This document shows positions 1,420-32,810 of a DNA stretch of 32,869 bases, piece by piece. The first letter of the stretch is position 1. Each line of letters starts with the position of its first letter. Both the position numbers and the translations under genes were made by a program. Source of the stretch: an uncultured bacterium (lineage in GTDB: Bacteria; Bacillota; Clostridia; Lachnospirales; Lachnospiraceae); assembly GCA_947381965.1 (NCBI GenBank), contig CANCXX010000047.1, forward strand, positions 1 through 32,869, written 5' to 3'. Below the pieces are notes generated by a model that ran no database searches, was not told the DNA's origin, and was given only the letters and a program-made list of their open reading frames with translations.

Positions 1420-1432
1420 TGGTGCGGCGGAA

Positions 1433-2866: not shown

Positions 2867-2891
2867 CAGTGTTTTATAGGATTTAAAAACA

Positions 2892-2920: not shown

Positions 2921-2955
2921 TAGGCTATGCTCAAATGACAGGAGGGAGCAAAGAG

Positions 2956-4014: not shown

Positions 4015-4097
4015 GGCAGCAGAGGGGTTAATTTTTGTACAATGGGAAATGTTGTGAAGCAGGGGATGGAAACTGACAGATAAAATGTGTGGGTGAT

Positions 4098-5153: not shown

Positions 5154-5164
5154 GGAGCGGAAAT

Positions 5165-6148: not shown

Positions 6149-6222
6149 AATGGTTAAAAAGTTTTGAGAAGATAAATTTGATGCAGTATCATGGGAAATT
6201 GGTGATATGCAGGGGTATATAC

Positions 6223-9578: not shown

Positions 9579-9628
9579 CCGGATATTAGGATGGCAAATA
9601 TCATGAAACAATAACGGAGGCCGTATAA

Positions 9629-10438: not shown

Positions 10439-10540
10439 TATGGCAGCTTTTAAGCTTTGCGGTGCAGGATTGCACACAGAGTCGGGCTTAAAGTCAGATA
10501 GCTATGGGCTGTGAAAAGGCCCTCCGGCATGGAGATTAAA

Positions 10541-12485: not shown

Positions 12486-12543
12486 TGCGCAGGGGATTTG
12501 ATTATAGCTGTAGTGTTACAGGTAAGCATATAGTAAGGAGGGC

Positions 12544-17253: not shown

Positions 17254-17259
17254 TTTAAG

Positions 17260-18243
17260 ATGTATTATGCGCCAGTGGTAATTCCGACTTTAAACCGATA
17301 TGATCATTTACAGAGGTGTATTGATTCCCTGAAAAAAAATGAATGTGCAAAAGACACCGATTTGTATATTTCGCTTGACTACCCTCCGGCAGAAAAATAT
17401 ATTTCAGGATATAAAAAGGTGGAATCATATCTGGATAAGGGAATATACGGTTTCCATAAAGTCCATATCTATAAACAGACGGAAAACCTTGGTCCATATG
17501 ACAATTTAAAGTTTGTGATAAGGGAAGCTTTAAAGGAATTTGACTATTTTATTCTGACAGAAGATGATAATGAGTTTTCACAAAATTTTCTTGCATTTAT
17601 GGATAAAGGGCTGGAAAGGTTTGAAAAAGATGAAAAAGTGATGAATATCTGCGGTTACTGTCATCCCGGATATGAATGGGACGCCGGAAGTGATAATGCA
17701 TTTCGGATGATTATGGCAGGCTGGGGAAGCGCTTTTTGGAAAGAAAAGTACCGGAAAATGGAACAGGAAATCAATATTGATTTTTTCTACGAGACAGCAC
17801 AGAGTTTTTCAAAAATGATAAAGTTATATAAAGAAAGCCGCTCACAATTCTGTTATTGTGTTAATGGTATTTTAACAGGACATTATCCGGCGCTGTTTGC
17901 AAAAAATGGTGAAATAACACTGATTGATGTTCCAATCAGCATATATTATATTATTAAAGAAAAATATTCTGTTCTCCCAACAGTATCGAAAGTGCGGAAC
18001 TGGGGAAATGACGGCAGTGGAGTGAACTGTCAGGGAGATGAAAAGGATAATCCAATGGATTATCCCCTTGATACAGAAACAGATTTTGAATATATTATCT
18101 GTGATAAGGATGGGGTGGCGGATAAAAATTTAGCGATAAGTTCCATGATAAACGCACCTTCGGTGGTTTTTAGAATGGCAACTATTGTAAGATATATTTG
18201 GTGGTATATAACGAAAGGGCATAAAAGGATAAAGGCAGAGTGA
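17260..18243 (+). CDS. GT-A-like glycosyltransferase with EDD motif, copy 1
   Basis: Predicted 327-aa protein opening with Y-A-P-V-V-I-P-T-L-N-R-Y, a GT2-like first strand, and carrying T-E-D-D-N-E-F-S (Glu101-Asp102-Asp103) as probable metal site. Further features are a G-W-G-S-A-F-W segment and N-D-G-S-G-V-N near the C-terminus. The layout recalls GNT-I/GT2-type transferases, and these proteins recur in polysaccharide clusters without known donor. A clear relative sits at 29510 with the same opening, the same EDDNEFS motif and the same D-G-S-G-V-N. The ATG at 17260 has AGAGGTG at 17244-17250. Its stop overlaps the GNAT gene by four bases. Confidence 0.72.
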   Translation: MYYAPVVIPTLNRYDHLQRCIDSLKKNECAKDTDLYISLDYPPAEKYISGYKKVESYLDKGIYGFHKVHIYKQTENLGPYDNLKFVIREALKEFDYFILTEDDNEFSQNFLAFMDKGLERFEKDEKVMNICGYCHPGYEWDAGSDNAFRMIMAGWGSAFWKEKYRKMEQEINIDFFYETAQSFSKMIKLYKESRSQFCYCVNGILTGHYPALFAKNGEITLIDVPISIYYIIKEKYSVLPTVSKVRNWGNDGSGVNCQGDEKDNPMDYPLDTETDFEYIICDKDGVADKNLAISSMINAPSVVFRMATIVRYIWWYITKGHKRIKAE

Positions 18244-18776
18244 AAACGTTAAAGTTAATTTCCGTTCAGTATCCGGACCTTGTTTTGGAATTGGCAAAAG
18301 AAAAAGATATTGAAAACCTCCGCATCTGGAAAAATGCAAACAGAAGAAGTTTTTTTTATCAGGAAGAAATTTCAGCGAAAGAGCAGGAAAAATGGTTTGC
18401 GTCCTATCAAAAACGGACTGAAGATTACATGTTTATAGTAAAAGAAGTGACAAAGGAATCGGCGGATGCCCATTCCATTGGCTGTCTGGCGTTTCGAGTA
18501 GAAGATGAGAGAACCATAGACCTTTACAATATTATCAGAGGGCAGAAAAGCAAAGGAACAGCGTCTATGAGGAATGCCATGTATGTTATGCTGAATTTCA
18601 TTAAAGAGAATTATCCTGAGAAGAGAATTAAATGTGATGTGCTAAAAGATAATCCGGCGGTTGGCTGGTATCAGAAATGTGGGTTTGCTATTTGGAAGGA
18701 AATGGAGTATTATATAATGGATATAGATAAAAAGGATATTCCGGCGGTAAAGGTTATAGCCAGTGAGGAGGAATAG
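18240..18776 (+). CDS. GNAT-family N-acetyltransferase, probable amino-sugar acylation
   Basis: Predicted 178-aa GNAT protein. It has L-R-I-W-K-N near residue 28, as in RimJ/RimL- and PseH-type enzymes, the acetyl-CoA pyrophosphate loop Q-K-S-K-G-T-A (102-108), and the terminal D-N-P-A-V-G-W-Y-Q-K-C-G-F, where the conserved Asn and Tyr of the fold sit. It begins at GTG 18240, overlapping the previous stop (GTGA), and ends three bases before an aminotransferase gene. The pair aminotransferase plus GNAT is the usual way to make an N-acetylated 4-amino-sugar nucleotide (compare WecE/WecD or LegC/LegH). Substrate is inferred from context. A run of eight T lies at 18350-18357. Confidence 0.8.
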   Translation: MKTLKLISVQYPDLVLELAKEKDIENLRIWKNANRRSFFYQEEISAKEQEKWFASYQKRTEDYMFIVKEVTKESADAHSIGCLAFRVEDERTIDLYNIIRGQKSKGTASMRNAMYVMLNFIKENYPEKRIKCDVLKDNPAVGWYQKCGFAIWKEMEYYIMDIDKKDIPAVKVIASEEE

Positions 18777-18779
18777 ATT

Positions 18780-19880
18780 ATGATTAATGTATTTGGATCC
18801 AAGGTAGGACAGGAAGAAATTGCACAAATAACGGAAAGTATCAACAATCAATGGATGGGGATGGGACCTAAAACAAAAGCTTTTGAAGCAAAGATGGCGG
18901 AAAGACTTCATCAGGATAAGTTTGTGCTGGTAGACAGCGGATCAAATGGACTTTATATGGCTCTGACCTTATTGGAGCTTCCGAAAGGCAGTGAAATTAT
19001 CATTCCTTCTTTTACATGGGTATCCTGCGCTCAGGTAGTTATGCTTGCTGGATGTGTTCCTGTATTTTGTGATGTGGATTTAGAATCCCAGAATGTGACT
19101 GCGGAAACCATTAAACCACATATTACAGAAAATACCAGTGCAATTATGGTGGTTCATTATGCAGGGCTTCCGGTAGATTTGGACCCCATTTTGGAGCTTG
19201 GATATCCGGTGGTAGAAGATGCCTGCCATGCGGTGGACTCTTTATATAAAGGGAAGCCCTGCGGAACAATCGGAGATGCAGGCGTTTACAGCTTTGACGC
19301 TGTTAAGAACCTTTCTATGGGAGAAGGCGGCGGTGTTGTTTCCAAGAATTCCAAGCTTTTGGAGAGAGCAAATGTTTTACGGTATTGTGGAATTGGAAAA
19401 TCGGGATTTGAGGCGTCAACTCACGGAAAAGATCGCTGGTGGGAATATAATATTGTAGAACCTTTTATAAAAATGAATCCTTCTGATATTGCAGCGGGCA
19501 TTGGTCTTGCTCAGCTTGGAAAACTGGACGAGCTACAGGCATACAGGAAGAAGATATGGGATATCTATCAGGATGAATTTGGAGCTGTGGACTGGATTGA
19601 AACACCCCAGGAAGCGTCAGAGGGGGACAGGCATTCTTATTTTACGTATTTTATACGCGTGCCCCGAAGGGATGAAATGGCAAAAAAATTGTTTGATGAA
19701 GGAATTTATACAACATTAAGATACCATCCGCTCCATTTAAATCCACTGTATAACAGTAAAGCAGAATTGCCGAACAGCGAACTATTAAATGAAACAGGAT
19801 TAAATATTCCGCTTCATCCAAGTCTTTCAATGGAGGATGTGGATAAAATTGTAGACCGTGTCAAAGCATTTGGAAAATAA
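18780..19880 (+). CDS. DegT/DnrJ/EryC1 family sugar aminotransferase
   Basis: Predicted 366-aa PLP-dependent fold-I aminotransferase. Lys176 in S-F-D-A-V-K-N is the Schiff-base lysine, Asp147 in V-V-E-D-A-C-H-A binds the PLP ring nitrogen, and the phosphate region reads D-S-G-S-N-G. The protein has normal family length. Such enzymes convert nucleotide 4-keto (or 3-keto) sugars to amino sugars. A GNAT gene lies immediately upstream, and a LegB-type dehydratase at 5165 could supply a 4-keto substrate. It does not look like the VioA-type paralogue at 30564, so a different substrate is likely. GAGGAGG at 18765-18771 is a strong ribosome binding site for ATG 18780. Confidence 0.86.
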   Translation: MINVFGSKVGQEEIAQITESINNQWMGMGPKTKAFEAKMAERLHQDKFVLVDSGSNGLYMALTLLELPKGSEIIIPSFTWVSCAQVVMLAGCVPVFCDVDLESQNVTAETIKPHITENTSAIMVVHYAGLPVDLDPILELGYPVVEDACHAVDSLYKGKPCGTIGDAGVYSFDAVKNLSMGEGGGVVSKNSKLLERANVLRYCGIGKSGFEASTHGKDRWWEYNIVEPFIKMNPSDIAAGIGLAQLGKLDELQAYRKKIWDIYQDEFGAVDWIETPQEASEGDRHSYFTYFIRVPRRDEMAKKLFDEGIYTTLRYHPLHLNPLYNSKAELPNSELLNETGLNIPLHPSLSMEDVDKIVDRVKAFGK

Positions 19881-19881
19881 A

Positions 19882-20814
19882 ATGACGGAAAAATTCAGTT
19901 GGGAATACTATAAATATAAGCGATATTGTGCAAGAATAAAGCAGCGCATTACAGGAACTTATTTTACACATTATGCAGGGAAAAAACTTATGTCCTTAAG
20001 TGAAGGAAATAAAAGGATAATAGACCTTCTTTCTTCACGGAAGCCATGTGCTGTAGCAAGGTTTGGGTCAGTGGAAGTAAGTGTACTTGCAGAAAGAGAA
20101 GCACAGAAATTAGGAAAGCGTGAAAAATGTAATGATCATATTTTATGTACATCAGCAGGTTTTTTCCCAGAAGATAAAAAAATGATTGATTTATTTGCAG
20201 ATACGATAATCAGGAATGTACATGAAATAGATTTGCTTGGCATCTGGTATAATCCTGCAGAAGAGTTTATTGCAGACAGATACATGAAAAATACAGCATT
20301 TACAGGAATTTCTGCAATTGAACCCTATGTTTTTACAGAGCCATGGAGCGCTTGTCTTGAGAATAAAAAAGTACTTGTAGTGCATCCTTTTGCGGAATCA
20401 ATCAAAAAACAATATGCGATTCACCACAAATTGTTTGACAATAAGAAAGTATTGCCGGATTTTGAACTTAAAGTTATTAAAGCTGTGCAAACAATAGCTG
20501 GGACGGTGGACGACAGGTTTTCAAACTGGTTCGAGGCTCTTCAGTATATGAAAGAGAGAATGGAAAATACAGACTTTGACGTTGCAATCATTGGCTGCGG
20601 GGCATATGGAATGCCCCTTGCTATTTATGCAAAGCAAATGGGAAAACAGGCTGTTCATATGGGAGGTGCAACCCAGATTTTGTTTGGCATTAAGGGACAC
20701 AGATGGGATGAAAACAGGACAATATCTAATCTGTATAACGAATATTGGATTCGACCAAATCAGAGTGAGACAGTAGAGCATCAAGAGAAAGTTGAGGGCG
20801 GATGTTATTGGTAG
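19882..20814 (+). CDS. GT-D-fold-like putative glycosyltransferase
   Basis: Predicted 310-aa soluble protein. It contains V-A-R-F-G-S-V-E (58-65), which lines up with the R-Y/F-G-D-G-E loop of the GT-D (DUF1792) glucosyltransferases, but the Asp of the D-x-E metal motif is Ser here and Gly is Val. Later motifs are D-V-A-I-I-G-C-G-A-Y-G and H-M-G-G-A-T-Q, both consistent with a Rossmann-like nucleotide-binding fold. Start ATG 19882 lies one base after the upstream stop; only a weak GGAAAA precedes it, so coupling is likely. A frame from GTG 19858 would overlap the aminotransferase. Assignment as a glycosyltransferase rests on fold resemblance and context. Confidence 0.55.
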   Translation: MTEKFSWEYYKYKRYCARIKQRITGTYFTHYAGKKLMSLSEGNKRIIDLLSSRKPCAVARFGSVEVSVLAEREAQKLGKREKCNDHILCTSAGFFPEDKKMIDLFADTIIRNVHEIDLLGIWYNPAEEFIADRYMKNTAFTGISAIEPYVFTEPWSACLENKKVLVVHPFAESIKKQYAIHHKLFDNKKVLPDFELKVIKAVQTIAGTVDDRFSNWFEALQYMKERMENTDFDVAIIGCGAYGMPLAIYAKQMGKQAVHMGGATQILFGIKGHRWDENRTISNLYNEYWIRPNQSETVEHQEKVEGGCYW

Positions 20815-21938
20815 ACAGAAAAATAAATGTGTTGATGATGCCAAGCTGGTATACAAATATTGATGCGACTAAATTTACAACTGGAATATTTCATTATGAG
20901 CAGGCGATGGACCTGAAAAAATACTGTAATGTGGTCATGTATTATCCATTTGACAGAGTGTTAAAAGATGATTTTACAGTAAATGATGAACGGGGGATAC
21001 GTACTTATCGTTCCCGTTTTGTTCAAAAGCAGAGAATAAGAAACAGAATTCGGATTTTTAAGGCTTTTAATAAAATAAGGAAAGAATTTAAACCGGATAT
21101 TATTCATGTACATGTAGCGGTGGAAGCTGGAAAGTATGCAGCTTTTTTAGGAAAACTTTTTCATATACCGGTGGTTATTACAGAGCACTCATCAGTAGAA
21201 GTCTCATTGACAGGTAAAGTAGGCGTTATCTTATCTAAATACGTATATGAACGGTGCAGCTATATCGCATGTTGCTCAGATGATTTACAGGGAAAACTCC
21301 AGAAATATTTTCCCCATATTGACTTTGGAGTGGTATATAATGGAATTCAACCTGAAACAATATTGGAGAAAAATGATAAAAATTATTATAAGCAGGGGTT
21401 CATAAATATCGTTATTGTTGCAGCGTTCTATAGTTTAGATATTAAAGGATATCAGTTTTTACTTCCAGCAATCAGACAGATTGTAAATGATGGGTACAAG
21501 GTTATACTCCATATTGTAGGGGATGGGGTTTATAAAGAGCATTATGAGAACCTAGTGAAAAATCTTAATATTGAAGAATATTGTATTTTTTATGGAGATT
21601 GTGAAAGAGAAAAGGTTTACCAGATTGTTTCACAAATGGATTTTTTTGTGTCATCCAGTATCTTGGAATGCTCCGGTGTTTCAGTTCAGGAAGCAATGCT
21701 CCTGGGAAAACCGATTTTGGTAACAAGGTCAGGAGGGGCTAATTCGCTGGTAACAGAGGATACAGCTATTGTTGTGGATAAGGAAAGCACAAATGCTTTG
21801 GTAGAAGGAATTAAAGAAATGATTGCAAGGCTTGGAGAATTTGACACTGATAAGATTAAGAAGTATGCTGTGAACAAATTTGAAATTACAAATATAAGTA
21901 AAAAATATATGAAAATATATGAAAATATATTAAAATAA
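20802..21938 (+). CDS. GT4 family glycosyltransferase, copy 1
   Basis: Predicted 378-aa GT-B glycosyltransferase. The N-terminal domain opens with N-V-L-M-M-P-S-W-Y and has I-T-E-H-S-S near residue 127; the C-terminal domain has I-H-V-H earlier, V-Y-N-G at the hinge, and the E-x7-E signature at Glu289/Glu297 in E-C-S-G-V-S-V-Q-E. Gene length is normal and the frame is intact, which makes it the reference for the broken relative at 31682. It overlaps the upstream gene by 13 bases. ATG 20802 has GAGGGCG too close in front; GTG 20829 matches the start of the paralogue better. The 3' end contains a short ten-base tandem repeat. Confidence 0.86.
   Translation: MLLVDRKINVLMMPSWYTNIDATKFTTGIFHYEQAMDLKKYCNVVMYYPFDRVLKDDFTVNDERGIRTYRSRFVQKQRIRNRIRIFKAFNKIRKEFKPDIIHVHVAVEAGKYAAFLGKLFHIPVVITEHSSVEVSLTGKVGVILSKYVYERCSYIACCSDDLQGKLQKYFPHIDFGVVYNGIQPETILEKNDKNYYKQGFINIVIVAAFYSLDIKGYQFLLPAIRQIVNDGYKVILHIVGDGVYKEHYENLVKNLNIEEYCIFYGDCEREKVYQIVSQMDFFVSSSILECSGVSVQEAMLLGKPILVTRSGGANSLVTEDTAIVVDKESTNALVEGIKEMIARLGEFDTDKIKKYAVNKFEITNISKKYMKIYENILK
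21901..21937 (+). repeat. Short 10-bp AT-rich tandem repeat
   Basis: About three and a half units of the ten-base phrase GAAAATATAT (first and last imperfect) cover the last codons and stop of the copy 1 GT4 gene. It encodes the K-K-Y-M-K-I-Y-E-N-I tail, which is similar in the paralogue where the DNA repeat is weaker, so it is probably a by-product of AT-rich coding. Confidence 0.5.
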
Positions 21939-21958
21939 GCTGGTTTGGAGAATTAAAA

Positions 21959-23698
21959 ATGAGGGGACAGTATCAAAAGGAAATAATTTGTGCTATTATT
22001 GCTATTGCAGTTTCAGCTGCGATAGGAATGATTTCGATACGTATTTGGGAAATAGACCTTACGGTATTGCCCAAGACTTTTGATGACGCAATGGGCATAG
22101 CGACAATATCAAAAAGTATTGCTGAAAATGGGATAGCTGGAATTTATTTTAATAATAGATGGGGAGCTCCGGAAACTGCTTCATTAATAGATTACCCGTA
22201 TATAGACCTATTACTTGCAGGAATGATTGTATTTGTTAATTTATTTACTTCAAATGGAATATGTACTGCTTATATTGTATATTTATTAGGGTTTCCTTTG
22301 ACAGCAGCGAGTATGTATTTTTTATTATCTTATTTAAATATTAACAGGGTGACTAAAATAGTAATCAGTATTATTTATGCAGTTTCTCCATTTCATTTTT
22401 TAAGGGGAATTGGACATTTGGCATTATCAAATTATTTTACACTGCCATTGGGGATTTATTTATCATTTATTATTTTAGACTATAAAAAATGGAAAGAAAG
22501 TAAAATTAGATATTGTGCCTACGCCTGTGCCGTATTGTTAGGATTGGGGAGTGCTTATTATGCGTTTTTTGTATCTGTTATTTTGGGAATCGCGCTCGTT
22601 ATAAAGCTTATAAAAGATAAAGATTTAAACATTATTTATAATGAAGCAAGATATCTATACATTATAGTGGTAGGAGTATTAATAGAAATGCTCCCTAAAA
22701 TAATATATAGTGCTCTAAATGGAAAAAACTATGAAGCGGCTGTTCGATATCCAAGTGAAGCGGAACATTTAGGACTAAAAATTATACAATTATTTTTGCC
22801 ACCTAGCTATTCAAGGATAGGTACATTTAGAAATATAGCAGAAACTTACCAAAATAGCGGTGTTGAAATTAATGAAAATGTTACATCTTCTATGGGTTTA
22901 ATAGCATCAGTTGGGTTTTTGTTATTATGCGTTTGGTTTTTTATTACGTATTTGCGGATTGATTTAAAATTTAAAGATATAAAAGAATATTGTGATTTTT
23001 TGACACTTAGTTTGCTTGTACTTCTTTTACTTAGTCTTGTTGGGGGATTTGGAGTTATATTTAATTCTTTTGTTACTCCATTAATTAGAGGATATTGCAG
23101 GGTAAGCATATTGATTACTGGTATTTGTTTAACCATGCTTGCGATATGTTGTGAATTTTTTTTATTGAAAATAAAAGGTAAAGTAATCTACTATATTGGA
23201 TTGATTATTATGCTTGGGGTAGGTCTGTATGATCAGGTTAAAATAGAGAAAGCCGGATGGCAGGATGCAAGGAAGAAGGATAAAGAAATTTATTCTGAAT
23301 TTTTTGGGAATGTAGAAAATATGCTTAAAGAAGGAGATATGATATATCAATTACCATATATGGATTACCCAGAAGCCGATTTCCCAATAGTAAAAATGGG
23401 TCACTATTCTCCTTTTTTAGGATATATTTATACAGATAATATTAGATGGAGTTATGGTGGGATGAAAGGAAGGAATACAATTGCAAAAGAAATAGTATGT
23501 GATAATGGAATGAGTGAAGAATTCCTCGAAAATCTTGAATGGTATGGATTTGCAGGGGTGTGCATTGACACATATGGATTTGAAGATGAAGGTGTGCAGA
23601 TTTGTAAGTATTATGATGGTTTAAATACTGAATCTTTGGTTTCGGGGGATGGTAGATTTTACTTTTACATATTGCCACCAAAGAATGGAGATAATTAG
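21959..23698 (+). CDS. Polytopic membrane protein, GT-C-like
   Basis: Predicted 579-aa integral membrane protein with roughly ten hydrophobic helices, the first at about residues 9-27, and a soluble C-terminal domain of about 150 residues. Directly after the first helix comes F-D-D-A (Asp42-Asp43) in the first outside loop, the place and kind of acidic motif used by GT-C glycosyltransferases that take polyprenyl-phosphate sugars as donors. The GtrB-like enzyme at 10541 could supply such a donor. No WWDYG oligosaccharyltransferase motif is seen. A polymerase or other polysaccharide membrane protein is the alternative. GGAG at 21947-21950 precedes ATG 21959. The gene is among the most AT-rich in the window. 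Confidence 0.55.
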   Translation: MRGQYQKEIICAIIAIAVSAAIGMISIRIWEIDLTVLPKTFDDAMGIATISKSIAENGIAGIYFNNRWGAPETASLIDYPYIDLLLAGMIVFVNLFTSNGICTAYIVYLLGFPLTAASMYFLLSYLNINRVTKIVISIIYAVSPFHFLRGIGHLALSNYFTLPLGIYLSFIILDYKKWKESKIRYCAYACAVLLGLGSAYYAFFVSVILGIALVIKLIKDKDLNIIYNEARYLYIIVVGVLIEMLPKIIYSALNGKNYEAAVRYPSEAEHLGLKIIQLFLPPSYSRIGTFRNIAETYQNSGVEINENVTSSMGLIASVGFLLLCVWFFITYLRIDLKFKDIKEYCDFLTLSLLVLLLLSLVGGFGVIFNSFVTPLIRGYCRVSILITGICLTMLAICCEFFLLKIKGKVIYYIGLIIMLGVGLYDQVKIEKAGWQDARKKDKEIYSEFFGNVENMLKEGDMIYQLPYMDYPEADFPIVKMGHYSPFLGYIYTDNIRWSYGGMKGRNTIAKEIVCDNGMSEEFLENLEWYGFAGVCIDTYGFEDEGVQICKYYDGLNTESLVSGDGRFYFYILPPKNGDN

Positions 23699-24685
23699 AT
23701 GCAGCCTAAGATAAGCGTGTTATTGCCAGTTTATAATGGGGAACGTTTTTTGGAAGAGTCTATAGATAGTTTATTAAATCAAACGTATAAAAGTTTTGAA
23801 TTATTAGTCTTGCTGGAATATGGAAGCAATCAAGCAAGTCGAAATATTGTATATAGTAAAACTGACCAAAGGGTCAGAATTATCGAAAACAGAGAATGTA
23901 AACTTGGTCTTGCACAATCCTTGAATCTGGGGATAAGGGAGGCGAAAGGTGAGTATATTGCAAGAATGGACGCAGATGATATTAGTCTCCCCAAGCGTTT
24001 TGAAAAACAAGTAAAGTTTTTGGACAGGCACTCACAAATTGTGATGTGTGGTACAGCAATGAAGGGTTTATATACTGATGGGCATACCGATAAAAGGGGA
24101 TACTTTACAGACCCAGAAAGTATTAAATTCGAATGTATGTTAGGAAATCCATTTGGTCATCCAACAGTGATGTGGAGGAGAAAGGAATTCTTAGAGGCAG
24201 GGCTTTTTTATAAGGATACACCTTACAGTGAAGATTTTGAATTATGGAAAAGAGTAGTGGAGATATATCCTTGTGCTAACTTGAAGGAATATCTTCTTAT
24301 ATATCGGATCCATGAAGAAAGTGCCAGTGCAGTTTTTAGTAATACTTTGGGTAATGTTAATAGTGTTCTTAACAAGGAATATCTAAAAAAACATAATATT
24401 GAATATAATTTGGAAGCCCCTTTTTTTAAGGGGAATTTGACAGAAGGAGAATTAAAGTACAGGGAAGATATTCTATGTCAAATATGCCAAATATGGAGTA
24501 AACCAAGAGAATGTCATAAGGCTTTGGAGCAGAGAGTAAGACAGCTTTATACAGTAAATAACGTATATAGTTATAAGCGGTATTGGGAGCGGTTTGGATT
24601 TGTGTATAAAAAAAATATATATGATAGATTAAGAATTATGGTGAGTGTAAATTTGCATAAAGTTATGTCTTCAGTACGAAAATGA
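23699..24685 (+). CDS. GT2 family glycosyltransferase with altered first Asp motif
   Basis: Predicted 328-aa GT-A fold protein beginning K-I-S-V-L-L-P-V-Y-N and carrying the metal site M-D-A-D-D at 90-94, then I-S-L-P-K-R-F-E, typical of GT2 enzymes of O-antigen clusters. The first nucleotide-binding loop, normally V-D-D-G-S-T-D, reads L-L-E-Y-G-S-N, so the usual Asp pair is replaced by Glu-Tyr. Glu may substitute; otherwise base recognition would be affected. The E-D-F-E-L-W motif downstream is intact. ATG 23699 follows the previous stop directly with GGAG at 23687-23690. The donor is unknown. Confidence 0.83.
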   Translation: MQPKISVLLPVYNGERFLEESIDSLLNQTYKSFELLVLLEYGSNQASRNIVYSKTDQRVRIIENRECKLGLAQSLNLGIREAKGEYIARMDADDISLPKRFEKQVKFLDRHSQIVMCGTAMKGLYTDGHTDKRGYFTDPESIKFECMLGNPFGHPTVMWRRKEFLEAGLFYKDTPYSEDFELWKRVVEIYPCANLKEYLLIYRIHEESASAVFSNTLGNVNSVLNKEYLKKHNIEYNLEAPFFKGNLTEGELKYREDILCQICQIWSKPRECHKALEQRVRQLYTVNNVYSYKRYWERFGFVYKKNIYDRLRIMVSVNLHKVMSSVRK

Positions 24686-24715
24686 CAAAAATAGAATTGT
24701 ATAGGTAATTTGAAA

Positions 24716-26518
24716 ATGAGTAAAGATTTTGCAACATTGATTTGCATGTGGAAGCATATCCAATATATTATGACAAAAAAACAGAGAAGGCAGGCAGGTG
24801 CAATTCTCTTAATGATTATTTTAGGTGCACTATTTGAAACTTTAAGCGTTTCGGCTATATTGCCTTTTATTCAATCTATTTTGAATCCTGAAGAATTAGC
24901 CAATAAGTGGTATATGAATATTATTATACAGACTTTCAATATTAGGAGTTCGTATGGTGTAATATTTATTTGTGGATTCTTGATAGCTGTGGTATATATT
25001 ATTAAAAATATATATTTATTTATTTCTTCGCGTGTTCAATCAAAGTTTCGATGTAGATTTCAAAAAAATTTGTCTACAAAGTTACTTGCATCATATATGA
25101 AAAGACCATATGTATTTTTTTTGGATATTAATAGTGCTGAAATTATGAGAACGTTGACTACAGATGTGTTTGGCGTATTTGAAATACTACAAAATGGGTT
25201 TAAGGTTTTTTCTGAATTTTTTGCGCTTGTATTAATTGGAATTTTTATATTGTATATTGATTTTGTTATGGCAGTGGGGGTTTTGACAATTGCTATTGTA
25301 TGTTTTGTGTGTATTACATGTTTTTTTAAAAAGAAATTGAGCAAAATAGGTGCAAAGCAGAGAGAAGCCAATGCAGAAAGGCAGAAGTGCGCATACCAGG
25401 CGATAAATGGATATAAAGAAGTTCAGGTTATGCAGCGGGCAGAGTGTTTTGTAGAGACATATGAAGAAGCATATGAAGAGCAAAGAAAGATAGAAGTGAC
25501 CTTTGAAACAATAAGCGCATTGCCAGAAAGATTAATAGAATCAATATGTATAGCAGGATTGATTTGTGTAGTTTGCATTCGTTTAGCTATGGGAGTTGAT
25601 GTAGAAAAGTTCGTGCCAGAACTAAGTGCCTTTGCGGTTGCAGCTTTTCGGATTTTGCCCTCTGTTTCTCGAATGACTGGTTATCTAAATAACTTGGTAT
25701 TTTATCGTCCTACGGCAGAAGCAGTTGCAAAAGAATTGTATGAGACTGAAGTGTATGGAAAAATAACTAAAGAAAAAACAAATCGGTTAATTGAAAATAA
25801 TTCAGATACAAAATATCAATTTAAAGAAAAGGTTGAATTATCCAATATTTGTTATAAATATCCACATAGTGAAAATTATGTTTTGAATGGACTGTCTATT
25901 TCAATTGATAAAGGTGATGCAGTTGCTTTTATTGGTGCGTCAGGGGCAGGGAAAACAACATTAGCAGATGTTATTTTAGGATTACTTAATCCTGAAAAGG
26001 GTGCTGCTACAGTTGATGGAATAAATATTGAGGCTATACCCAAAACATGGAGCCAGATTATTGGCTATGTTCCACAAACTGTGTTTTTGGTAGATGATAC
26101 AGTTAGGAACAATATAGCATTTGGAATTAAAAAAAGTAAAATTGATGATATAATGGTATGGAGGGCGCTTGAACAGGCACAATTAAAGGAATTTATTTTA
26201 AGTTTACCAATGGGGCTGGATACAGTGGTTGGAGAGAGAGGAGTTAAGTTTTCAGGTGGGCAGAGGCAGAGAATAGCTATTGCAAGAGCATTATATTGTA
26301 ATCCCTCAATTTTAGTTTTAGATGAGGCCACATCAGCACTTGATAGTGAAACAGAGAATGCTGTTATGGAGTCTATAGAAGCGTTACAGGGGCATAAAAC
26401 ATTAATTATTGTAGCACATCGTCTGACAACAATCAGGAAATGTAATAAAATATATGAAATAGCTGATGGAAGTGCGGTTTTAAGGAAAAAGGAAGAAGTC
26501 TTAGGCGGGGGAATGTGA
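24716..26518 (+). CDS. ABC exporter, PglK/MsbA-like, copy 2
   Basis: Predicted 600-aa half-transporter with the same architecture as the exporter at 6223: membrane domain first, ATPase second. Walker A G-A-S-G-A-G-K-T-T is at 407-415, signature F-S-G-G-Q at 512-516, Walker B ends at Asp536-Glu537, switch His is 568. The ATPase domains of the two copies are nearly superimposable, sharing for instance the 17-residue stretch around the switch His, while the membrane domains are more diverged. It likely flips a related lipid-linked glycan. ATG 24716 has only a weak site in front. The fucose block follows directly, so a fucosylated glycan is a plausible cargo. Confidence 0.85.
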   Translation: MSKDFATLICMWKHIQYIMTKKQRRQAGAILLMIILGALFETLSVSAILPFIQSILNPEELANKWYMNIIIQTFNIRSSYGVIFICGFLIAVVYIIKNIYLFISSRVQSKFRCRFQKNLSTKLLASYMKRPYVFFLDINSAEIMRTLTTDVFGVFEILQNGFKVFSEFFALVLIGIFILYIDFVMAVGVLTIAIVCFVCITCFFKKKLSKIGAKQREANAERQKCAYQAINGYKEVQVMQRAECFVETYEEAYEEQRKIEVTFETISALPERLIESICIAGLICVVCIRLAMGVDVEKFVPELSAFAVAAFRILPSVSRMTGYLNNLVFYRPTAEAVAKELYETEVYGKITKEKTNRLIENNSDTKYQFKEKVELSNICYKYPHSENYVLNGLSISIDKGDAVAFIGASGAGKTTLADVILGLLNPEKGAATVDGINIEAIPKTWSQIIGYVPQTVFLVDDTVRNNIAFGIKKSKIDDIMVWRALEQAQLKEFILSLPMGLDTVVGERGVKFSGGQRQRIAIARALYCNPSILVLDEATSALDSETENAVMESIEALQGHKTLIIVAHRLTTIRKCNKIYEIADGSAVLRKKEEVLGGGM

Positions 26519-26523
26519 GAAAA

Positions 26524-27396
26524 ATGATTATTGTAAATATACAGGGACGTTTGGGAAATCAGATGTTTGGCATTGCATTATATAAGCAGTTGCTAAAAAT
26601 GGGAAAAGATGTCTATGTAGATTTGTCATATAATAGATCAAGAAAAAAAAAGGAAAGAGCTGCATTTGCCATAGAACCTAATATAGGTCTTTTTGACTTC
26701 AATTATAAGGTAATTGATGATGAAACTGCCCTAGAATATTTAAGAGACAGGGAAAATAGAACGTTAATAAAAAGATGGGAATATCGTATTTTCCCACAAA
26801 GATGTAAATGCTATGAAGAAAAGGCAACAGCGGTATATGATAAAAACGTATTTAGACTTGATGATGTATATTTGAATGGTTATTGGCAATCAGAAAAATA
26901 CTTTTTAGATGCAGCAGATGAAGTGAGGAAGATGTATCAGTTTCCAGATTTATTTAGTGACTATCAAAAAAGAATGCTCGGAAAAATAGAAGAGACAGAG
27001 TCAGTTTCGCTTCATATCAGACGTGGGGACTATTTAAACTTTCCAGAAATATACGGAACAGTTACATTGGATTATTATAAAAGAGCAATGGCTTATTTAC
27101 AAGAAAGAAAAGAAAATATACACTTTTACGTTTTTTCTAATGATGTTTTATGGGCAAAAAGAAACTTTGTTGGAGATGATATTACTGTTATAGAAGAGAA
27201 TAATGAGTTAATTACAAGCAATCTGGACATGCATCTTATGAAAAGTTGTAAGGATAATATTATAGCAAATAGTAGTTTTAGTTGGTGGGCAGCCTGGTTA
27301 AATAGCCATGAGAAAAAGACAATAATTGCGCCTAAAGCATGGGAAGTTAATAATTCAACGAAGGACATATGGTGTAAAGGTTGGGTCAAATTATAA
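26524..27396 (+). CDS. GT11 alpha-1,2-fucosyltransferase family protein
   Basis: Predicted 290-aa glycosyltransferase of family GT11. Signatures: I-Q-G-R-L-G-N-Q-M-F at the N-terminus, L-N-G-Y-W-Q-S-E-K-Y-F in the middle, the donor-binding H-I-R-R-G-D-Y (164-170), and S-S-F-S-W-W-A-A-W-L near the end. Bacterial members such as FutC and WbsJ transfer fucose from GDP-fucose in alpha-1,2 linkage to galactose-type acceptors. The following gene makes GDP-fucose, which supports this. ATG 26524 puts the first strand at the N-terminus as usual for the family; GTG 26515 overlaps the previous stop (GTGA) and would add three residues. An A9 run lies at 26643-26651, in frame here. Confidence 0.9.
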   Translation: MIIVNIQGRLGNQMFGIALYKQLLKMGKDVYVDLSYNRSRKKKERAAFAIEPNIGLFDFNYKVIDDETALEYLRDRENRTLIKRWEYRIFPQRCKCYEEKATAVYDKNVFRLDDVYLNGYWQSEKYFLDAADEVRKMYQFPDLFSDYQKRMLGKIEETESVSLHIRRGDYLNFPEIYGTVTLDYYKRAMAYLQERKENIHFYVFSNDVLWAKRNFVGDDITVIEENNELITSNLDMHLMKSCKDNIIANSSFSWWAAWLNSHEKKTIIAPKAWEVNNSTKDIWCKGWVKL

Positions 27397-27406
27397 GGAG
27401 AGGGAA

Positions 27407-28375
27407 ATGCTAGAAAATAAAAAGATAATTGTTACTGGAGGAGCTGGTTTTTTAGGAAGACACATTGTAAAGCGGTTAGAACATCAAGGAAATCAAGTTT
27501 TTGTTCCAAGAAGTGTGGAATATAATTTAGAAAATAAAGAAGCTACAGAGAAAATGTTTGAAAAGTATCTTTTATATGGGGGGCATATTGATATTTTGAT
27601 TCATGCTGCAACAGATATTGGAGGGATAGGATATAGTAACTCTCATTCTGCTTCACAATTTTACAGCAACACTTTAATAAATTTAAATACAGTACATGGC
27701 GCTTATAAATATGGTGTTGAAAAGTTTGTAGGAATTGGGTCTGTATGTGAATATCCAGCGGTAACTCCATGTCCTTTTAAGGAGGAAGAATTGTGGAATG
27801 GTTATCCAGTAGAAAGTAATGATGCTTATGGATTGACGAAAAGAATGCTACTGGCTCAATGTGTAGCATATGAAAGACAATATGGATTTCGGTTCATACA
27901 TTTGTTGCCAGTAAATATGTATGGGCCTGGTGATAATTTTGATTTGGAGAATTCCCATGTTATTCCCGCTTTAATAAGAAAAATAGCTTATGCTATTGAC
28001 CATAATAGTGACGTGGTTGAAGTATGGGGAACAGGATTTGAAAGCAGGGAATTTGTTTATATTGAGGATGTGGCAGAAGCAGTAATTTTAGCATCAGAAA
28101 GATATGAATCATCTGCTCCTGTTAATATTGGCAGTGGGAAAGAAATTCGGATGAATGAGCTTGCTGAAATTTTAAAAGATTTGATGGGATATAAGGGGAC
28201 GTTTAAGTATCTTAATAATGGTCTAGGGGGACAAGTGCGAAGGCTATTGGATGTGAGCAAAGCTGAACAAGAATTTGGATTTAAGGCAAAAACAAACTTT
28301 TATGAGGGGCTTGAAAAAACAATCAGGGCATTTTATGATAATCGTGAAAAAATAGAGAATGGTGATTGTAAATGA
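27407..28375 (+). CDS. fcl: GDP-L-fucose synthase (GDP-4-keto-6-deoxymannose epimerase/reductase)
   Basis: Predicted 322-aa extended short-chain dehydrogenase. The Rossmann signature G-G-A-G-F-L-G is at 11-17. Ser112, Cys114, Tyr141, Lys145 and His184 all sit at the spacing of the E. coli Fcl residues Ser107, Cys109, Tyr136, Lys140 and His179, including the Cys/His acid-base pair needed for double epimerisation. The phrases N-M-Y-G-P-G-D-N-F and H-V-I-P-A-L-I are as in Fcl. It converts GDP-4-keto-6-deoxymannose to GDP-L-fucose with NADPH. The GDP-mannose 4,6-dehydratase that should precede it is not in the window. Strong AAGGAG (27395-27400) precedes ATG 27407; fucosyltransferase genes flank it on both sides. 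Confidence 0.88.
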   Translation: MLENKKIIVTGGAGFLGRHIVKRLEHQGNQVFVPRSVEYNLENKEATEKMFEKYLLYGGHIDILIHAATDIGGIGYSNSHSASQFYSNTLINLNTVHGAYKYGVEKFVGIGSVCEYPAVTPCPFKEEELWNGYPVESNDAYGLTKRMLLAQCVAYERQYGFRFIHLLPVNMYGPGDNFDLENSHVIPALIRKIAYAIDHNSDVVEVWGTGFESREFVYIEDVAEAVILASERYESSAPVNIGSGKEIRMNELAEILKDLMGYKGTFKYLNNGLGGQVRRLLDVSKAEQEFGFKAKTNFYEGLEKTIRAFYDNREKIENGDCK

Positions 28376-29424
28376 ATCAAAGTAAAAAATATTTAATTGT
28401 AAAAGGAACCTGTGGGCTTGGAAACCGTCTAATGACTCTTGCGAATGCTTTGGAGTATTGCGAAAAAACTGGAAGAACAATTTCAGTGGATTGGAGTGAT
28501 GGCATGTTTTCGCCAAAAGGTGAGAATGCTTTTACAAAATATTTCGTATTGAGAGGATGTAAATGGGAAAGTAATTTTAAAGTAGACAATAACTATAATG
28601 GAACTTTGTATCCGGATGTTGCAAGAAATTTACCAGATACTTTTGAGTTGGATGAATATTTTCATACATGTTCAGCAAATAAGAAGGGAAGTAAATTGCT
28701 CTCAAGGCTAATTCATTTTGGTAGCGGAGTTGCGCATACACTTTTAAGTGAAGATTGTTTTAAATATTATTTTGTTCTTTGGAACCACTGGGAGTTATTA
28801 GAGAGCCATAGAGATCTTAGAAGTCCTAAATTAGGAGGAAATATGTTTTGCCTTGGAGGAGATTTACCGCTTTCAAGGCGGGAAGATATTGTTTATTTTG
28901 GAGATTTCTGCCCAAGCTACCAACCTAAGTATTTAAGGGATAAAATTTTTTTAAAAGATGATTTAAGAAATGAAATAGATATATTTGCTAAAGAAAATAA
29001 TATAAGAGATAAAACGTTAGGTTTGCATATCCGTTGTACCGATAAAAACTTTAAGGAAAATTTGCAAAAAATTTTTTATGTAGCTGACAATTATATAAAT
29101 AAGTATAAACTAAAAAATATTTTTTTATCAACAGACCAATATGAAATTATAAAACATGCAACGAAATTTTTTGGAAGTAAGCTAGTTTTATATAACAAGT
29201 ACTTGCCACACCTGGAAAATGGAGGAAAGTATGGAATACACACATGGGCTTTGGGACAAGAGGATGAACAGCTAAAAGTCCAAATGTATCATGATGCTCT
29301 AATGGAAATGTATTTGTTAGCTGAGACAGAATATCTTTTGTATCAGGGTAATTCAACTTTTAGTAGTGTAAGCTGTGATATAAGTAAGTCTGAAATGTGT
29401 TTTGATTGGCAAAAATGTCTGTAA
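28372..29424 (+). CDS. NodZ/GT23-like putative fucosyltransferase
   Basis: Predicted 350-aa protein starting at ATG 28372, which overlaps the stop of the GDP-fucose synthase gene (ATGA). It opens with G-L-G-N-R-L-M-T-L-A-N-A-L, the donor-side loop seen in NodZ-like and related GDP-fucose transferases, and has L-G-L-H-I-R-C-T-D (His219, Arg221), matching the H-x-R motif that binds GDP-fucose in the alpha-1,6- and O-fucosyltransferase superfamily. F-L-S-T-D-Q follows, as in that group. A second fucosyltransferase next to the GT11 gene suggests two different fucose linkages or acceptors. Assignment to GT23 is tentative; a distinct family of the same superfamily is possible. Confidence 0.65.
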   Translation: MNQSKKYLIVKGTCGLGNRLMTLANALEYCEKTGRTISVDWSDGMFSPKGENAFTKYFVLRGCKWESNFKVDNNYNGTLYPDVARNLPDTFELDEYFHTCSANKKGSKLLSRLIHFGSGVAHTLLSEDCFKYYFVLWNHWELLESHRDLRSPKLGGNMFCLGGDLPLSRREDIVYFGDFCPSYQPKYLRDKIFLKDDLRNEIDIFAKENNIRDKTLGLHIRCTDKNFKENLQKIFYVADNYINKYKLKNIFLSTDQYEIIKHATKFFGSKLVLYNKYLPHLENGGKYGIHTWALGQEDEQLKVQMYHDALMEMYLLAETEYLLYQGNSTFSSVSCDISKSEMCFDWQKCL

Positions 29425-29509
29425 TTATTAGAAGCAATAAGGAAAAAATTATATAAGGAAGGAAACAGGATAGAATACTTTTTCTAATTTTATTTGGAAG
29501 AGGTATTTT

Positions 29510-30559
29510 GTGGTTATTGGAAAAAATATGATATATGCACCAATTATAATTCCAACTTTAAATAGATATGAACACTTGAAAAGATGTATTGAATCTTTGC
29601 AAAAAAATGAATGGGCGAAATACACTGAATTATATATTTCGGTAGATTATCCACCTAAGGAAGTTTATTGGGAAGGATATAAAAAGGTTAAGAGGTATCT
29701 TGATACAGGAATAAAAGGATTTAAGAAGTTTAATTTGTTCTATCAAAACAGTAATTTAGGGCCATATAAAAATTCTTTATTTTTAAAAAAAATTGTTTTT
29801 AAAAAATATGACAGATTTATTATTACAGAAGATGATAATGAATTCTCACCATGCTTTATTGAATATATGGATAAAGGATTGGAAATATTTGAGAGTGATC
29901 CAAACATAATGTTGATATGTGGACATAATGCAGATAAAAACTGGAATGCAAATGGAGGGAATGTATTAAAGCTATCATCATTACAATATTATTATGGTAC
30001 TGGGTTTTGGTATCATAAATGGGTAAAACTGAATGAAGGAGTTAATATTAAATTATTTAATTCTATTGGACGTAATCCTTATTATATATGGAAGCTTTAT
30101 TATAACAGCAGAAATATGCTTTGGTGGTACGTACATCGTTATCTTTGTGAGCCATATAATGCAATGTTTGATGAAAATGGAAATTTGATACCTATTGATA
30201 TAAATAACAATATATTTTGCATTATAAAAAATAAGTATATGATTGTTCCAGTTAAATCAATGGTTAGGAATCATGGCAGGGATGGGAGCGGAGTAAATGC
30301 TGGGACGGATAATGGTTATGACCCTATAAAGATAGATATAGATTCCCATAATAATTTTGAATATTGTATACCAGCTGACTTTAAGTTAAATAAGGATAAC
30401 AGGCTCATACAGGCAGGTATAGATGGAAAAATAAAGTTTAAGGATAATTTTAAGGTACTTCAAAACTTAGTATTAAGGGAAGCCTTGGGGGACAAAGGGT
30501 ATCATAAGTTTCTGCAAATACAAAATAAATATAGAGAAAAAAAAGTACGGAGAAAATAA
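29510..30559 (+). CDS. GT-A-like glycosyltransferase with EDD motif, copy 2
   Basis: Predicted 349-aa relative of the protein at 17260: same opening (Y-A-P-I-I-I-P-T-L-N-R-Y), same T-E-D-D-N-E-F-S (Glu107-Asp108-Asp109) and same D-G-S-G-V-N. The middle differs clearly (W-Y-H-K-W in place of F-W-K-E-K-Y), so acceptor or donor may differ. The C-terminus is 20-30 residues longer and basic. GTG 29510 has AGAGG at 29498-29502, whereas ATG 29528 matches the start of the paralogue; the true start is undecided. The 85-base gap upstream has no convincing promoter, but it is the largest break in the right half of the operon. Confidence 0.72.
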   Translation: MVIGKNMIYAPIIIPTLNRYEHLKRCIESLQKNEWAKYTELYISVDYPPKEVYWEGYKKVKRYLDTGIKGFKKFNLFYQNSNLGPYKNSLFLKKIVFKKYDRFIITEDDNEFSPCFIEYMDKGLEIFESDPNIMLICGHNADKNWNANGGNVLKLSSLQYYYGTGFWYHKWVKLNEGVNIKLFNSIGRNPYYIWKLYYNSRNMLWWYVHRYLCEPYNAMFDENGNLIPIDINNNIFCIIKNKYMIVPVKSMVRNHGRDGSGVNAGTDNGYDPIKIDIDSHNNFEYCIPADFKLNKDNRLIQAGIDGKIKFKDNFKVLQNLVLREALGDKGYHKFLQIQNKYREKKVRRK

Positions 30560-30563
30560 GCGG

Positions 30564-31673
30564 ATGAAAAGAATTTTGGTAGCACGTTCTTCTATGCCAG
30601 CTTTAAGTGAATATGTAGATGAAATTAGAAGTCTATGGGATTCCCATTGGCTTACTAATATGGGAGAAAAACATGAACAATTTGCAAAGGAATTGAAAGA
30701 TTATCTTTCAGTGCCGTATATTTCCTTATTCTGTAATGGGCATATGGGATTGGAACTATTAATTCAGGCAATGGATTTTCCAGCAGGCAGTGAAATTATT
30801 ACAACTCCCTTTACTTTTGCATCCACTACACATGCAATTGTAAGAAATAATCTTGTTCCGGTTTTTTGTGATATTAGAGAGGATAATTTTACAATAGATT
30901 CTTGTAAAATAGAAGAATGTATTACGGAAAAAACAGTGGCAATTCTTCCTGTACATGTATACGGAAATGTTTGTGATGTTGAAGGAATTGAAAGAATAGC
31001 GATTAAATATGGTTTGAAGGTTTTATATGATGCAGCGCATGCTTTTGGAGTAAGATATAAAGAAAAAGGAATTGGAAATTATGGAGATGCATCAATGTTT
31101 AGTTTCCATGCGACTAAAGTTTTTAATTCAATTGAAGGTGGAGGTGTTACATTTAAAGAAGAAAGGATTGGAAAAAGATTATATCAATTAAAAAATTTTG
31201 GTATTCGCTCTGAAGAAATTATAGATGCAGTTGGTGCAAATGGAAAAATGAATGAATTTGTTGCTGCCATGGGTATATGTAATCTACGACATATAGATGA
31301 AGAAATAGAAAAAAGAAAGCATGTATATGAAAGATATGTAAAAAATTTAAAAGGTGTGAATGGAATTAAAATACCTATACAAAATACGGACGTATTGCCA
31401 AATTTTGCGTATTTTCCTATAGTTTTTGAAGGATATAGGTTTGACAGAAATGAAATATATGAGAGTTTAAGAAATGAAAATATATATGTTCGAAAGTATT
31501 TTTATCCCTTGACAAATGAATTTGAGTGTTATAAGAAATTGTTTGATACGAAACAAATACCTATAGCGCATAATATTTCAAACCATGTGTTAACATTACC
31601 GATGTATGCGGATTTAGATTTTACAGATGTAGATAAAATATGTGATATTATATTAGGTAAGGGGAGGGCATAA
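30564..31673 (+). CDS. VioA/FdtB-like sugar nucleotide aminotransferase
   Basis: Predicted 369-aa DegT/DnrJ-family PLP aminotransferase. The Schiff-base Lys185 lies in F-S-F-H-A-T-K, Asp156 in V-L-Y-D-A-A-H-A-F-G, followed by E-G-G-G-V. The W-L-T-N-M-G entry, the H-V-Y-G-N segment and the F-H-A-T-K-V-F motif are as in VioA-type dTDP-4-amino-4,6-dideoxyglucose transaminases and the related FdtB/QdtB enzymes. Product would be dTDP-Qui4N or a 3-amino analogue; the dTDP-4-keto-6-deoxyglucose supply (RmlA/RmlB) and a matching acyltransferase are not in the window. CGGAG at 30548-30552 precedes ATG 30564. It lies between the EDD-glycosyltransferase and GT4 copies, as does the aminotransferase at 18780. 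Confidence 0.82.
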   Translation: MKRILVARSSMPALSEYVDEIRSLWDSHWLTNMGEKHEQFAKELKDYLSVPYISLFCNGHMGLELLIQAMDFPAGSEIITTPFTFASTTHAIVRNNLVPVFCDIREDNFTIDSCKIEECITEKTVAILPVHVYGNVCDVEGIERIAIKYGLKVLYDAAHAFGVRYKEKGIGNYGDASMFSFHATKVFNSIEGGGVTFKEERIGKRLYQLKNFGIRSEEIIDAVGANGKMNEFVAAMGICNLRHIDEEIEKRKHVYERYVKNLKGVNGIKIPIQNTDVLPNFAYFPIVFEGYRFDRNEIYESLRNENIYVRKYFYPLTNEFECYKKLFDTKQIPIAHNISNHVLTLPMYADLDFTDVDKICDIILGKGRA

Positions 31674-31681: not shown

Positions 31682-32810
31682 ATGAATGTATTAATGGTGC
31701 CAAGTTGGTATGCAAAAGATGAAAATGGGAAGTTTCTAAGTGGAAGATTTCATTATGAGCAGGCATTGAATTTACAGAAATACTGCAATATAGCGGTATT
31801 TTATCCATTTGACCAGAGAATGGAAGAGAACTTTGCTGGAAAAGAAGAGGGGGGGGGTGTTGACCTGGCGTAGTAAGTCCTGGCAGCGAAAACGAATAAA
31901 AAGTAATATACAGCTTTGTAAATCATTTCATAAAGTTGTAAAGCTTTTTAAGCCAGATATATGTTTTGTTCAGGTTGCAAGTGAAGCAGGTAGAAGTATG
32001 GCTGCACTATGTAAAATACTTTCAATACCAATAGTTTTAGCAGAGCATTCAAGCCCGGAAGCATTGGGATTGGTAGAGGGAGGTAAGAAAAAAGACTATT
32101 TATTACTGAAGTTCGTTTATAGTCAATGTGCCTATGTAACATGTGTTTCACAGAACCTAACAGATACTTTAATAAGCTATTATCCGAAATTGAAGCCTAA
32201 AACCATTTATAATGGAATACAGCCAGTTTCAATATACACTAAATCGGAAAAACGTTATAGAGTTGATAACATGATAAATATAGTTATTGTAGGTGGTTTT
32301 TATAATATGACGGTAAAAGGTTATCAATATTTATTGCCTGCAGTAAAGGAAATGATTAAGAAGGGCTATCACATTGTATTGCATATATGTGGTGGTGGAA
32401 CATATAAAGAATATTATGAAAATTTGGCAGAAAAATTAGATATTATGCAACAATGTTTATTCTATGGACAGTGTCAAAGAGAAAAAGTATATGAAATAGT
32501 TAGTCAAATGGATTTTTTTGTTTCGGCAAGCCTGTTTGAAAGTGGAGGAATGGCGGCACAGGAAGCTATGCTATTAGGAAAGCCAGTATTGGCTACGAGA
32601 TCTGGGGGAGTCAGTTCACTGATTAGAGAGGAGACAGGTATTATAGTTGAAGCAGGAAATATAGAATCATTAGCTGATGGAATGATCAAAATGATAAAAA
32701 TATATAAAAAATTTGACACAGAAAAAATTAAGAAATATGCAGAAGATAATTTTTTGATAGATAACATTACAAAAAAATATATGAAAATTTTTGAACGGAT
32801 ATTACAATAA
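31682..32810 (+). pseudogene. GT4 family glycosyltransferase, copy 2, frame broken at a G9 tract (possibly phase-off)
   Basis: The first frame from ATG 31682 encodes N-V-L-M-V-P-S-W-Y and runs 63 residues to a stop at 31871-31873. The rest of the protein continues in the +1 frame to 32810, including I-V-L-A-E-H-S-S, I-Y-N-G and the E-x7-E signature (E-S-G-G-M-A-A-Q-E). The switch falls at nine consecutive G (31849-31857). With eight G the two halves join into a 375-aa protein that aligns without a gap to the intact copy at 20802 across the junction. Eleven G would also restore the frame. As written, only a short non-catalytic peptide is made unless the ribosome or polymerase slips. A sequencing indel must be excluded. 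A downstream frame from TTG 31809 is unlikely to be a real start. Confidence 0.85.
31849..31857 (+). repeat. Poly-G tract (G9), candidate contingency locus
   Basis: Nine G in a row inside an AT-rich coding region, 167 bases after the start codon. The intact paralogue has only five G at the matching place. Tract length sets whether the glycosyltransferase reads through (G8 on; G9 off, as here; G10 off; G11 on). This is the arrangement of slipped-strand phase-variable genes such as those of Campylobacter. Confidence 0.8.

Follow-up and report, generated by a model that had tools for sequence, protein, structure and literature searches.

A nine-guanine tract in a GT4 glycosyltransferase gene of an uncultured Lachnospiraceae bacterium, a probable phase-variation switch among a set of poly-G tracts

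In this work, we focused on a homopolymer of nine G (G9) located within a GT4 glycosyltransferase gene of an uncultured Lachnospiraceae bacterium (assembly GCA_947381965.1). The draft genome amounts to 4.31 Mb in 92 contigs and is hereafter referred to as the own genome; the window, i.e. the whole stretch of DNA that was analysed, is its entire contig C47 (32,869 bp). By eye, ribosome-binding sites are of Firmicutes type, which, together with the 334 genera of the family sample and the 25 families of the order in the sample of relatives, suggests Lachnospiraceae. A search for related loci in genome contigs yielded only a distant chlamydial hit, and searches against phages and plasmids revealed no close relative, with either no match or matches below 60% identity. 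The G9 is very probably a slipped-strand phase-variation (contingency) tract, with the GT4 gene assembled in its OFF state, and one of a set of such tracts. The strongest evidence comes from reading frames, which suggest that in the own genome and its congeners long G tracts switch, or at least that selection does not keep them in frame. A first-pass annotation had named the gene a candidate for phase variation, and this proposal is supported by the excess of long G runs, by the glycan-type genes in which they lie, by the approximately two thirds of tracts that are out of frame and by length differences between species at one tract site (on contig C16 of the own genome).

The G9 tract and the split GT4 gene

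As initially reported, the GT4 frame breaks at a run of exactly nine G, and the frames differ on either side of it (Table 1). The frame opened by the ATG at 31682, 8 bases past the stop of the DegT gene (30564-31673) and directly downstream of an AGGGAAG which by eye resembles a ribosome-binding site, passes into the tract and terminates at a TAG (31871-31873). The downstream frame extends over 948 nt after the tract without a stop, its final stop ending at 32810. With a cut-off of at least 80 amino acids, the sole open reading frame (ORF) listed at this locus is 31809-32810; it has a TTG start, upstream of which no ribosome-binding site was seen by eye. The downstream piece (P0002) alone matches PF00534 (1.5e-29) and PF13439 (1.6e-11) in Pfam. 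The E-x7-E motif, a mark of GT4 glycosyltransferases (GT-B), was recognized by eye both in P0002 (ESGGMAAQE) and in an intact paralog encoded at 20802 (ECSGVSVQE).

Comparison with this paralog bore out the earlier view that both halves of the gene are conserved. The upstream piece (P0001, 59 amino acids) is 50% identical to it over 58 residues (8-65) and P0002 is 49% identical over 333 residues (BLAST). The alignment of P0002 formally opens at paralog residue 50; the tract, at residue 65, is where true similarity sets in, the first residues of P0002 being wrong-frame pre-tract sequence with near-zero identity to the paralog. With both pieces homologous and the break at the tract, a change in tract length alters the frame of an otherwise intact GT4 gene. 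A GT4 ortholog with 39% identity, also intact, was found in one congener (G007). At the tract position, relatives display DEEEHGIRTFRS and VNDERGIRTYRS, with only five G in the paralog.

From established knowledge of such tracts, replication slippage at the G run would add or remove single bases, and one length class modulo three would join the N- and C-terminal parts of GT4 in frame, the assembled G9 being the presumed OFF length. Cells would thus switch reversibly between the enzyme and a 63-residue fragment. Since GT4 is the last gene visible in the surface-glycan cluster of the window, switching would change that glycan by adding or removing one sugar. As the own genome carries 17 runs of at least nine G, and several species comparable sets, single cells could show many combinations. 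We infer slippage, reversibility, switching rate and the effect at the surface.

A competing explanation is a recent one-way inactivation, in which a chance slip produced a pseudogene without any selected switching back. Such a loss could be tolerated given the close paralog in the same cluster, and the GT4 relatives are devoid of a tract. Using G007 as outgroup, downstream differences specific to the window gene are slightly, non-significantly more numerous than those specific to the paralog (41 vs 29, p 0.19), as are those upstream of the tract (8 vs 3, p 0.23); these counts lean towards decay of GT4, non-significantly, and do not allow the break to be dated. On the other side, the 948 nt downstream of the tract hold no other lesion and constraint is kept: the three codon positions show identities to the paralog of 0.64, 0.72 and 0.41, which reads as the pattern of constrained coding DNA, and the gene bears no apparent sign of long decay. 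Moreover, slippage at a run of nine G should occur in both directions, and the same picture recurs in many other genes, as would be expected from upkeep of the tracts. We therefore give one-way inactivation little probability. The first-pass annotation had considered the decay seemingly recent or reversible, and had named a G9 fixed in all strains together with further inactivating mutations as evidence against a switch; no further lesion was found.

Reading frames and excess of long G runs

A frame was assigned to a tract when one frame was clearly the longest on each side of it, i.e. at least 150 nt and twice the next. The loci had been fetched because they bear tracts and are uninformative on tract density; A/T runs and short G runs of the same loci served as controls. 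Among 86 G runs of at least nine that were scanned, 46 could be classified and 29 of these were out of frame: 7 of 10 in the own genome (7 of its 17 being unassignable) and 22 of 36 in congeners (33 of 69 unassignable). The 69 congener tracts include two own-genome duplicates (L138 and L188), both unclassifiable, so that 67 of 131 congener tracts are covered. Out-of-frame calls were less frequent among G8 (4/14), G6-7 (5/64) and G5 (19/292), as well as among A/T runs of at least eight (7/100) and A/T runs of six or seven (60/993); in every homopolymer class, such calls may also correspond to gene boundaries. The difference between G runs of at least nine and A/T runs of at least eight is highly significant (p 1.5e-12). 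Unclassifiable runs amounted to 40/86 for G9 and longer, 6/20 for G8, 18/82 for G6-7, 160/452 for G5, 44/144 for A/T of at least eight and 645/1638 for A/T of six or seven. The in-frame rate of the long G tracts (17/46) is statistically indistinguishable from one third (p 0.64), the value that a free phase would predict.

The tracts are also too numerous. Besides the G9, the window holds four G6 as its only G/C runs of at least six, and training a third-order Markov model on the remainder of the window, the tract excluded, gave an expectation of 0.07 runs of at least nine per window. A dinucleotide shuffle, whose scan sought runs of seven and not of nine, found G7 matches not unusual (3 seen vs 3.6 expected). 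On both strands of the own genome, we counted 41 G7, 8 G8, 14 G9, 3 G10 and none longer, i.e. 17 runs of at least nine, where extrapolation of the 7-to-8 ratio predicts about 1.9 (Poisson p 3.5e-11) and a deliberately inflated ratio 6.8 (p 7e-4). Pooling 37 genomes of the genus gave 646 G7, 128 G8 and 148 runs of at least nine, for about 32 expected (p 9e-51). At least one such run occurs in 30 of the 37 genomes, the own genome having the most. Some species show the trait strongly, whereas in others it is weak or missing: it is a property of several species and is not genus-wide. We disregarded poly-G found at the ends of contigs in other genomes (e.g. G043:C76:1-15 and G052:C55:7-36), which resembles a sequencing artefact. 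In two genomes of the same order from other families, G052 and G039, 407 and 142 overlapping G9 matches were recorded in 3.5 and 1.9 Mb, to be explained either by genomes rich in tracts or by base composition and artefacts.

Homopolymers are a common source of sequencing error, and the true GT4 tract might be in frame, the gene being intact and constant. Only one length was seen, in a draft assembly of 92 contigs. However, such errors would produce neither the excess of runs of at least nine (17 vs about 2) nor their placement in glycan-type genes, and only 7 of 100 classifiable A/T runs of at least eight in the same DNA are out of frame. A G-specific error would have to affect clearly more than half of the classifiable tracts, in many assemblies, and an error at the GT4 tract alone would leave the wider pattern unexplained. 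We consider this explanation very unlikely.

Several observations nevertheless weigh against a phase-variable GT4 gene and against the wider set. Each tract is known in a single assembled length, from one draft genome of this species, with 92 contigs and an estimated contamination of 7.31%. The automatic frame calls err both ways: among the seven out-of-frame calls made in the own genome, three are doubtful (L093:433, L095:5989 and L102:8256), their removal leaving 26 of 43 long G tracts out of frame (p 2.5e-11 against A/T), and one in-frame call (L122, in G022) rests on a spurious upstream frame and should be out. Among the 17 own tracts, three lie near 3' ends, one is intergenic and three are unassigned. 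The excess itself is uneven, with 7 of the 37 genus genomes lacking any run of at least nine and only 8 of 37 showing a significant excess individually (each genome's G7 count and the pooled ratio, with a threshold of 0.01/37). No tract-bearing GT4 ortholog is known: the paralog has G5 only, the genome of G007 contains no run of nine or more, and, of 397 genomes sampled from the family, none but the own genome gave a match at E 1e-30. Finally, MutS of the own genome is present and full length, and hypermutability through loss of mutS is unsupported.

Foreign contamination is a less likely source of the window contig. The window protein encoded at 29510 has a full-length match of 78% identity on contig C20 of the own genome, and that encoded at 10511 shares 81% identity with a protein from the G022 island. 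Tetranucleotide profiles of own AT-rich stretches correlate with that of the window at r 0.96-0.99, and those of GC-richer own stretches at 0.78-0.91; as congener islands match the window profile too, this measure mainly tracks base composition.

Genes at the tracts and their counterparts in congeners

Own-genome tracts lie in or beside genes with glycosyltransferase, sugar-modifying or group-transfer domains in 12 of 17 cases (Table 1), a raw count. Thirteen of the 17 are in fetched stretches of 34-41% G+C and four (on C16, C21, C53 and C59) in stretches of 44-46%. For nine congeners, 14 stretches were chosen at tract clusters; 11 of these stretches are at or below 40% G+C and three at 44-51%. 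Among 30 congener proteins at or beside tracts of at least eight, 22 match glycosyltransferase, methyltransferase or acyl/acetyltransferase families, again as a raw count (pieces counted apart, E 0.001, some matches below Pfam's own cut-off); four belong to other families (DUF1796, radical SAM, DUF6020 and C-5 DNA methylase) and four are without match. Both raw counts lean towards a set of loci that may be concentrated in surface structures. A G10 of G001 divides an Acyl_transf_3 domain into profile positions 2-229 and 233-322, the second piece being below cut-off.

Table 1 Features of the window and G tracts of the own genome (contigs designated C)
Feature	Position	Strand	Frame or location	Remarks
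G9 homopolymer, proposed slipped-strand switch	31849..31857	+		run of exactly nine G
GT4 gene, 5' part as assembled	31682..31873	+		63 aa frame; 50% identity to paralog residues 8-65
GT4 gene, 3' part	31858..32810	+	different frame	Glycos_transf_1 and Glyco_transf_4 domains
Intact GT4 paralog without long tract	20802..21938	+		cGGGGGata (G5) at equivalent place
Surrounding surface-glycan cluster	73..31673	+		Pfam on 20 of 28 window genes, NCBIfam; 4 of the 20 without Pfam match
Tract in window GT4			out of frame	domain or ortholog support, as for the other out-of-frame tracts below
Tract in B12-binding/radical SAM gene	C20:15994		out of frame	B12-binding domain separated from its radical SAM domain
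Tract in GT2 gene	C7:78722		out of frame	Glft2_N domain separated from GT2 domain
Tract in secreted protein	C16:74004		out of frame	secreted protein
Tract between two pieces	C20:35620		out of frame	neither piece with Pfam match
Three tracts of C15 cluster	C15		in frame	TylF-type methyltransferase, ADP-heptose 6-epimerase (over TIGR02197 cut-off), FkbM methyltransferase
Tract in hexapeptide transferase	C9		in frame	hexapeptide transferase
Tract at start of GT2 gene	C7:62988		in frame from ATG 25 nt upstream	start of GT2 gene
Two tracts	C20		near 3' ends	SDR gene, GNAT gene
Tract in CotH gene	C5		near 3' end	poly-C on coding strand
Tract before glycosyltransferase-like gene	C20:10793		intergenic	Pfam scores just below cut-offs
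Three tracts	C21, C53, C59			unassigned; C21 (no Pfam match), C53, C59 (DUF1492)
C16 secreted protein, no known family	L099:4104-5106 (G000:C16)			relatives L139, L140, L142, L143

The secreted-protein family of C16 provides a conserved tract position with length variation, in another gene than GT4. In five species, the tract lies in the signal-peptide-like start of the gene, with G9 in the own genome, G8 in G021, G10 in G022 and G9 in both G002 and G060. The longest upstream frame being spurious in G021, G022 and G002, the signal-peptide-like frame, recognized by eye, was used instead; it is continuous only in G021. The member from G001, although close in identity, has no tract, and the other 24 of the 30 fetched loci have no run of at least nine, with one G8 upstream of the match (L164). 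Comparison of 104 distinct tracts of at least eight revealed two more cross-species pairs with the tract at the same place, all G9: one pair is formed by an FkbM gene of G006 and its G028 homolog, the other by genes of G010 and G034.

These sites bear on a further explanation, according to which transcriptional slippage or ribosomal frameshifting at the G9 would yield a steady full-length fraction, the tract acting as an expression device. An out-of-frame tract within an otherwise intact gene is what such a device would look like, but it would favour one fixed frame relation, whereas tracts vary in length and frame, also when one site is compared across species, as for a switch at the DNA level. 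We regard it as the remotest of the explanations considered.

It is likely that several species of one presumably Gram-positive anaerobe genus run a Campylobacter-like phasome, with about ten to seventeen poly-G switches per genome in AT-rich surface-glycan islands, generating clonal glycan mosaics despite an intact mutS. As proposed here, these islands would comprise nonulosonic-acid and heptose pathways, acyltransferases, methyltransferases and glycosyltransferases, together with the signal peptide of a secreted protein and possibly a DNA methyltransferase.

In the cluster of the window, the glycosyltransferases are of the GT2, GT4 and GT9 types and are accompanied by genes for a sugar nucleotidyltransferase, an NAD epimerase/dehydratase, DegT aminotransferases and a methyltransferase, by an HldE-like heptose kinase/adenylyltransferase gene (14521-15963) and by two ABC exporters. 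On C15, an ADP-glyceromanno-heptose 6-epimerase gene (L094:9520-10491, G000:C15) carries an in-frame G9, and the HldE-like genes of the window and of C15 are 38% identical. The epimerase and HldE-like genes point to heptose-containing glycans in a Gram-positive.

The first 80 kb of C20 (L090-L093, G000:C20:1-80000; 37% G+C) bear glycan-type genes, including NeuB, LuxE-like, B12-radical SAM, CotH, GtrII and polysaccharide pyruvyl transferases. This stretch contains five G runs of at least nine, for a Markov expectation of 0.3, as well as three G8; G8 tracts lie in a CotH gene and a DUF4956 gene. At three other places (L095:5989, L096:7723 and L102:8256), a G9 or G10 is followed by TAATG or TAAAATG, between genes or at the start of genes; there, the G run could also serve as a ribosome-binding site of variable length. 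In a congener (L205:4373-5488, G035:C54), three G9 occur within 1.1 kb, one of them inside a gene matching C-5 DNA methylase, a possible phase-variable methyltransferase.

Known systems and origin of the tracts

The best-known examples of poly-G contingency loci come from Gram-negatives adapted to a host, such as Campylobacter, Helicobacter and Neisseria. Slipped-strand mispairing at a poly-G tract is described for cgtB of Campylobacter jejuni (PMC6437147). The loci considered here resemble those of C. jejuni (cgtB, Cj1295 and others) in having G tracts within glycosyltransferase or glycan-modification genes, many per genome; they differ in that the genus is presumably Gram-positive, MutS is present, own-genome tracts are G9-G10 and switching is predicted.

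The closest Gram-positive case found is Bifidobacterium breve, in which G9-G12 tracts subject to replication slippage are reported in sortase-dependent pilus genes, with measured mixtures of lengths (PMC9187656). That species is likewise a Gram-positive gut commensal with an intragenic G tract dividing a gene into two frames; according to the same source, it has one or two pilus clusters per genome, whereas the own genome has 17 runs of at least nine, mainly in glycan-type genes. Poly-A/T tracts close to the 5' ends of genes, e.g. in swrA of Bacillus subtilis, are covered by a survey of 99 genomes including Clostridia (PMC2831843), and they likewise illustrate homopolymer slippage as reversible gene inactivation in Gram-positives. 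Unlike in such systems, A/T runs of at least eight are here nearly always in frame (7/100 out), and it is the G runs that form the unstable class. Within Clostridia, random ON/OFF switching is also described for Clostridioides difficile, but by DNA inversion (PMC11868660, a 2025 review; invertible promoters also in PMC5386303) and not by slippage of a coding tract. A 2026 paper on flagellar glycosylation in Clostridium mentions phase variation as observed in Campylobacter (PMC13317340).

Among the best matches by title and abstract start in the open-licence PMC literature, we found no poly-G phase-variable gene set in Clostridia, a result that speaks only weakly for novelty. Systems of this kind are known, and their occurrence in this group appears to be new. 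If true, phage receptors, antibody targets and glycan signals could vary stochastically within a clone, and annotation would mislabel switchable genes as pseudogenes.

With respect to the cause of the tracts, missing mismatch repair was rejected as far as MutS is concerned: MutS1 is above cut-off in 35 of the 37 genomes, including the own one, and mutability would therefore stem from tract length rather than from mutS loss. A mobile-element origin was also rejected, since TAAA and short palindromes follow several congener tracts, yet no common element was seen by eye in the 60 bases upstream and 75 downstream. The stretch around the C20 tract at 10793 is homologous to window gene 29510 (78% protein identity), and the window counterpart of that tract, TGGAAGAGG, is of equal length, with four substitutions and no length change. 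Together with the G5 of the GT4 paralog, this case suggests that purine-rich seeds may grow into tracts. In the same region, broken DegT remnants (L090:11865-12171), whose pieces are 77-81% identical to window 30564-31673, adjoin the 78% identical copy of window gene 29510; remnants and copy are apparently a decayed duplicate of the end of the window's cluster.
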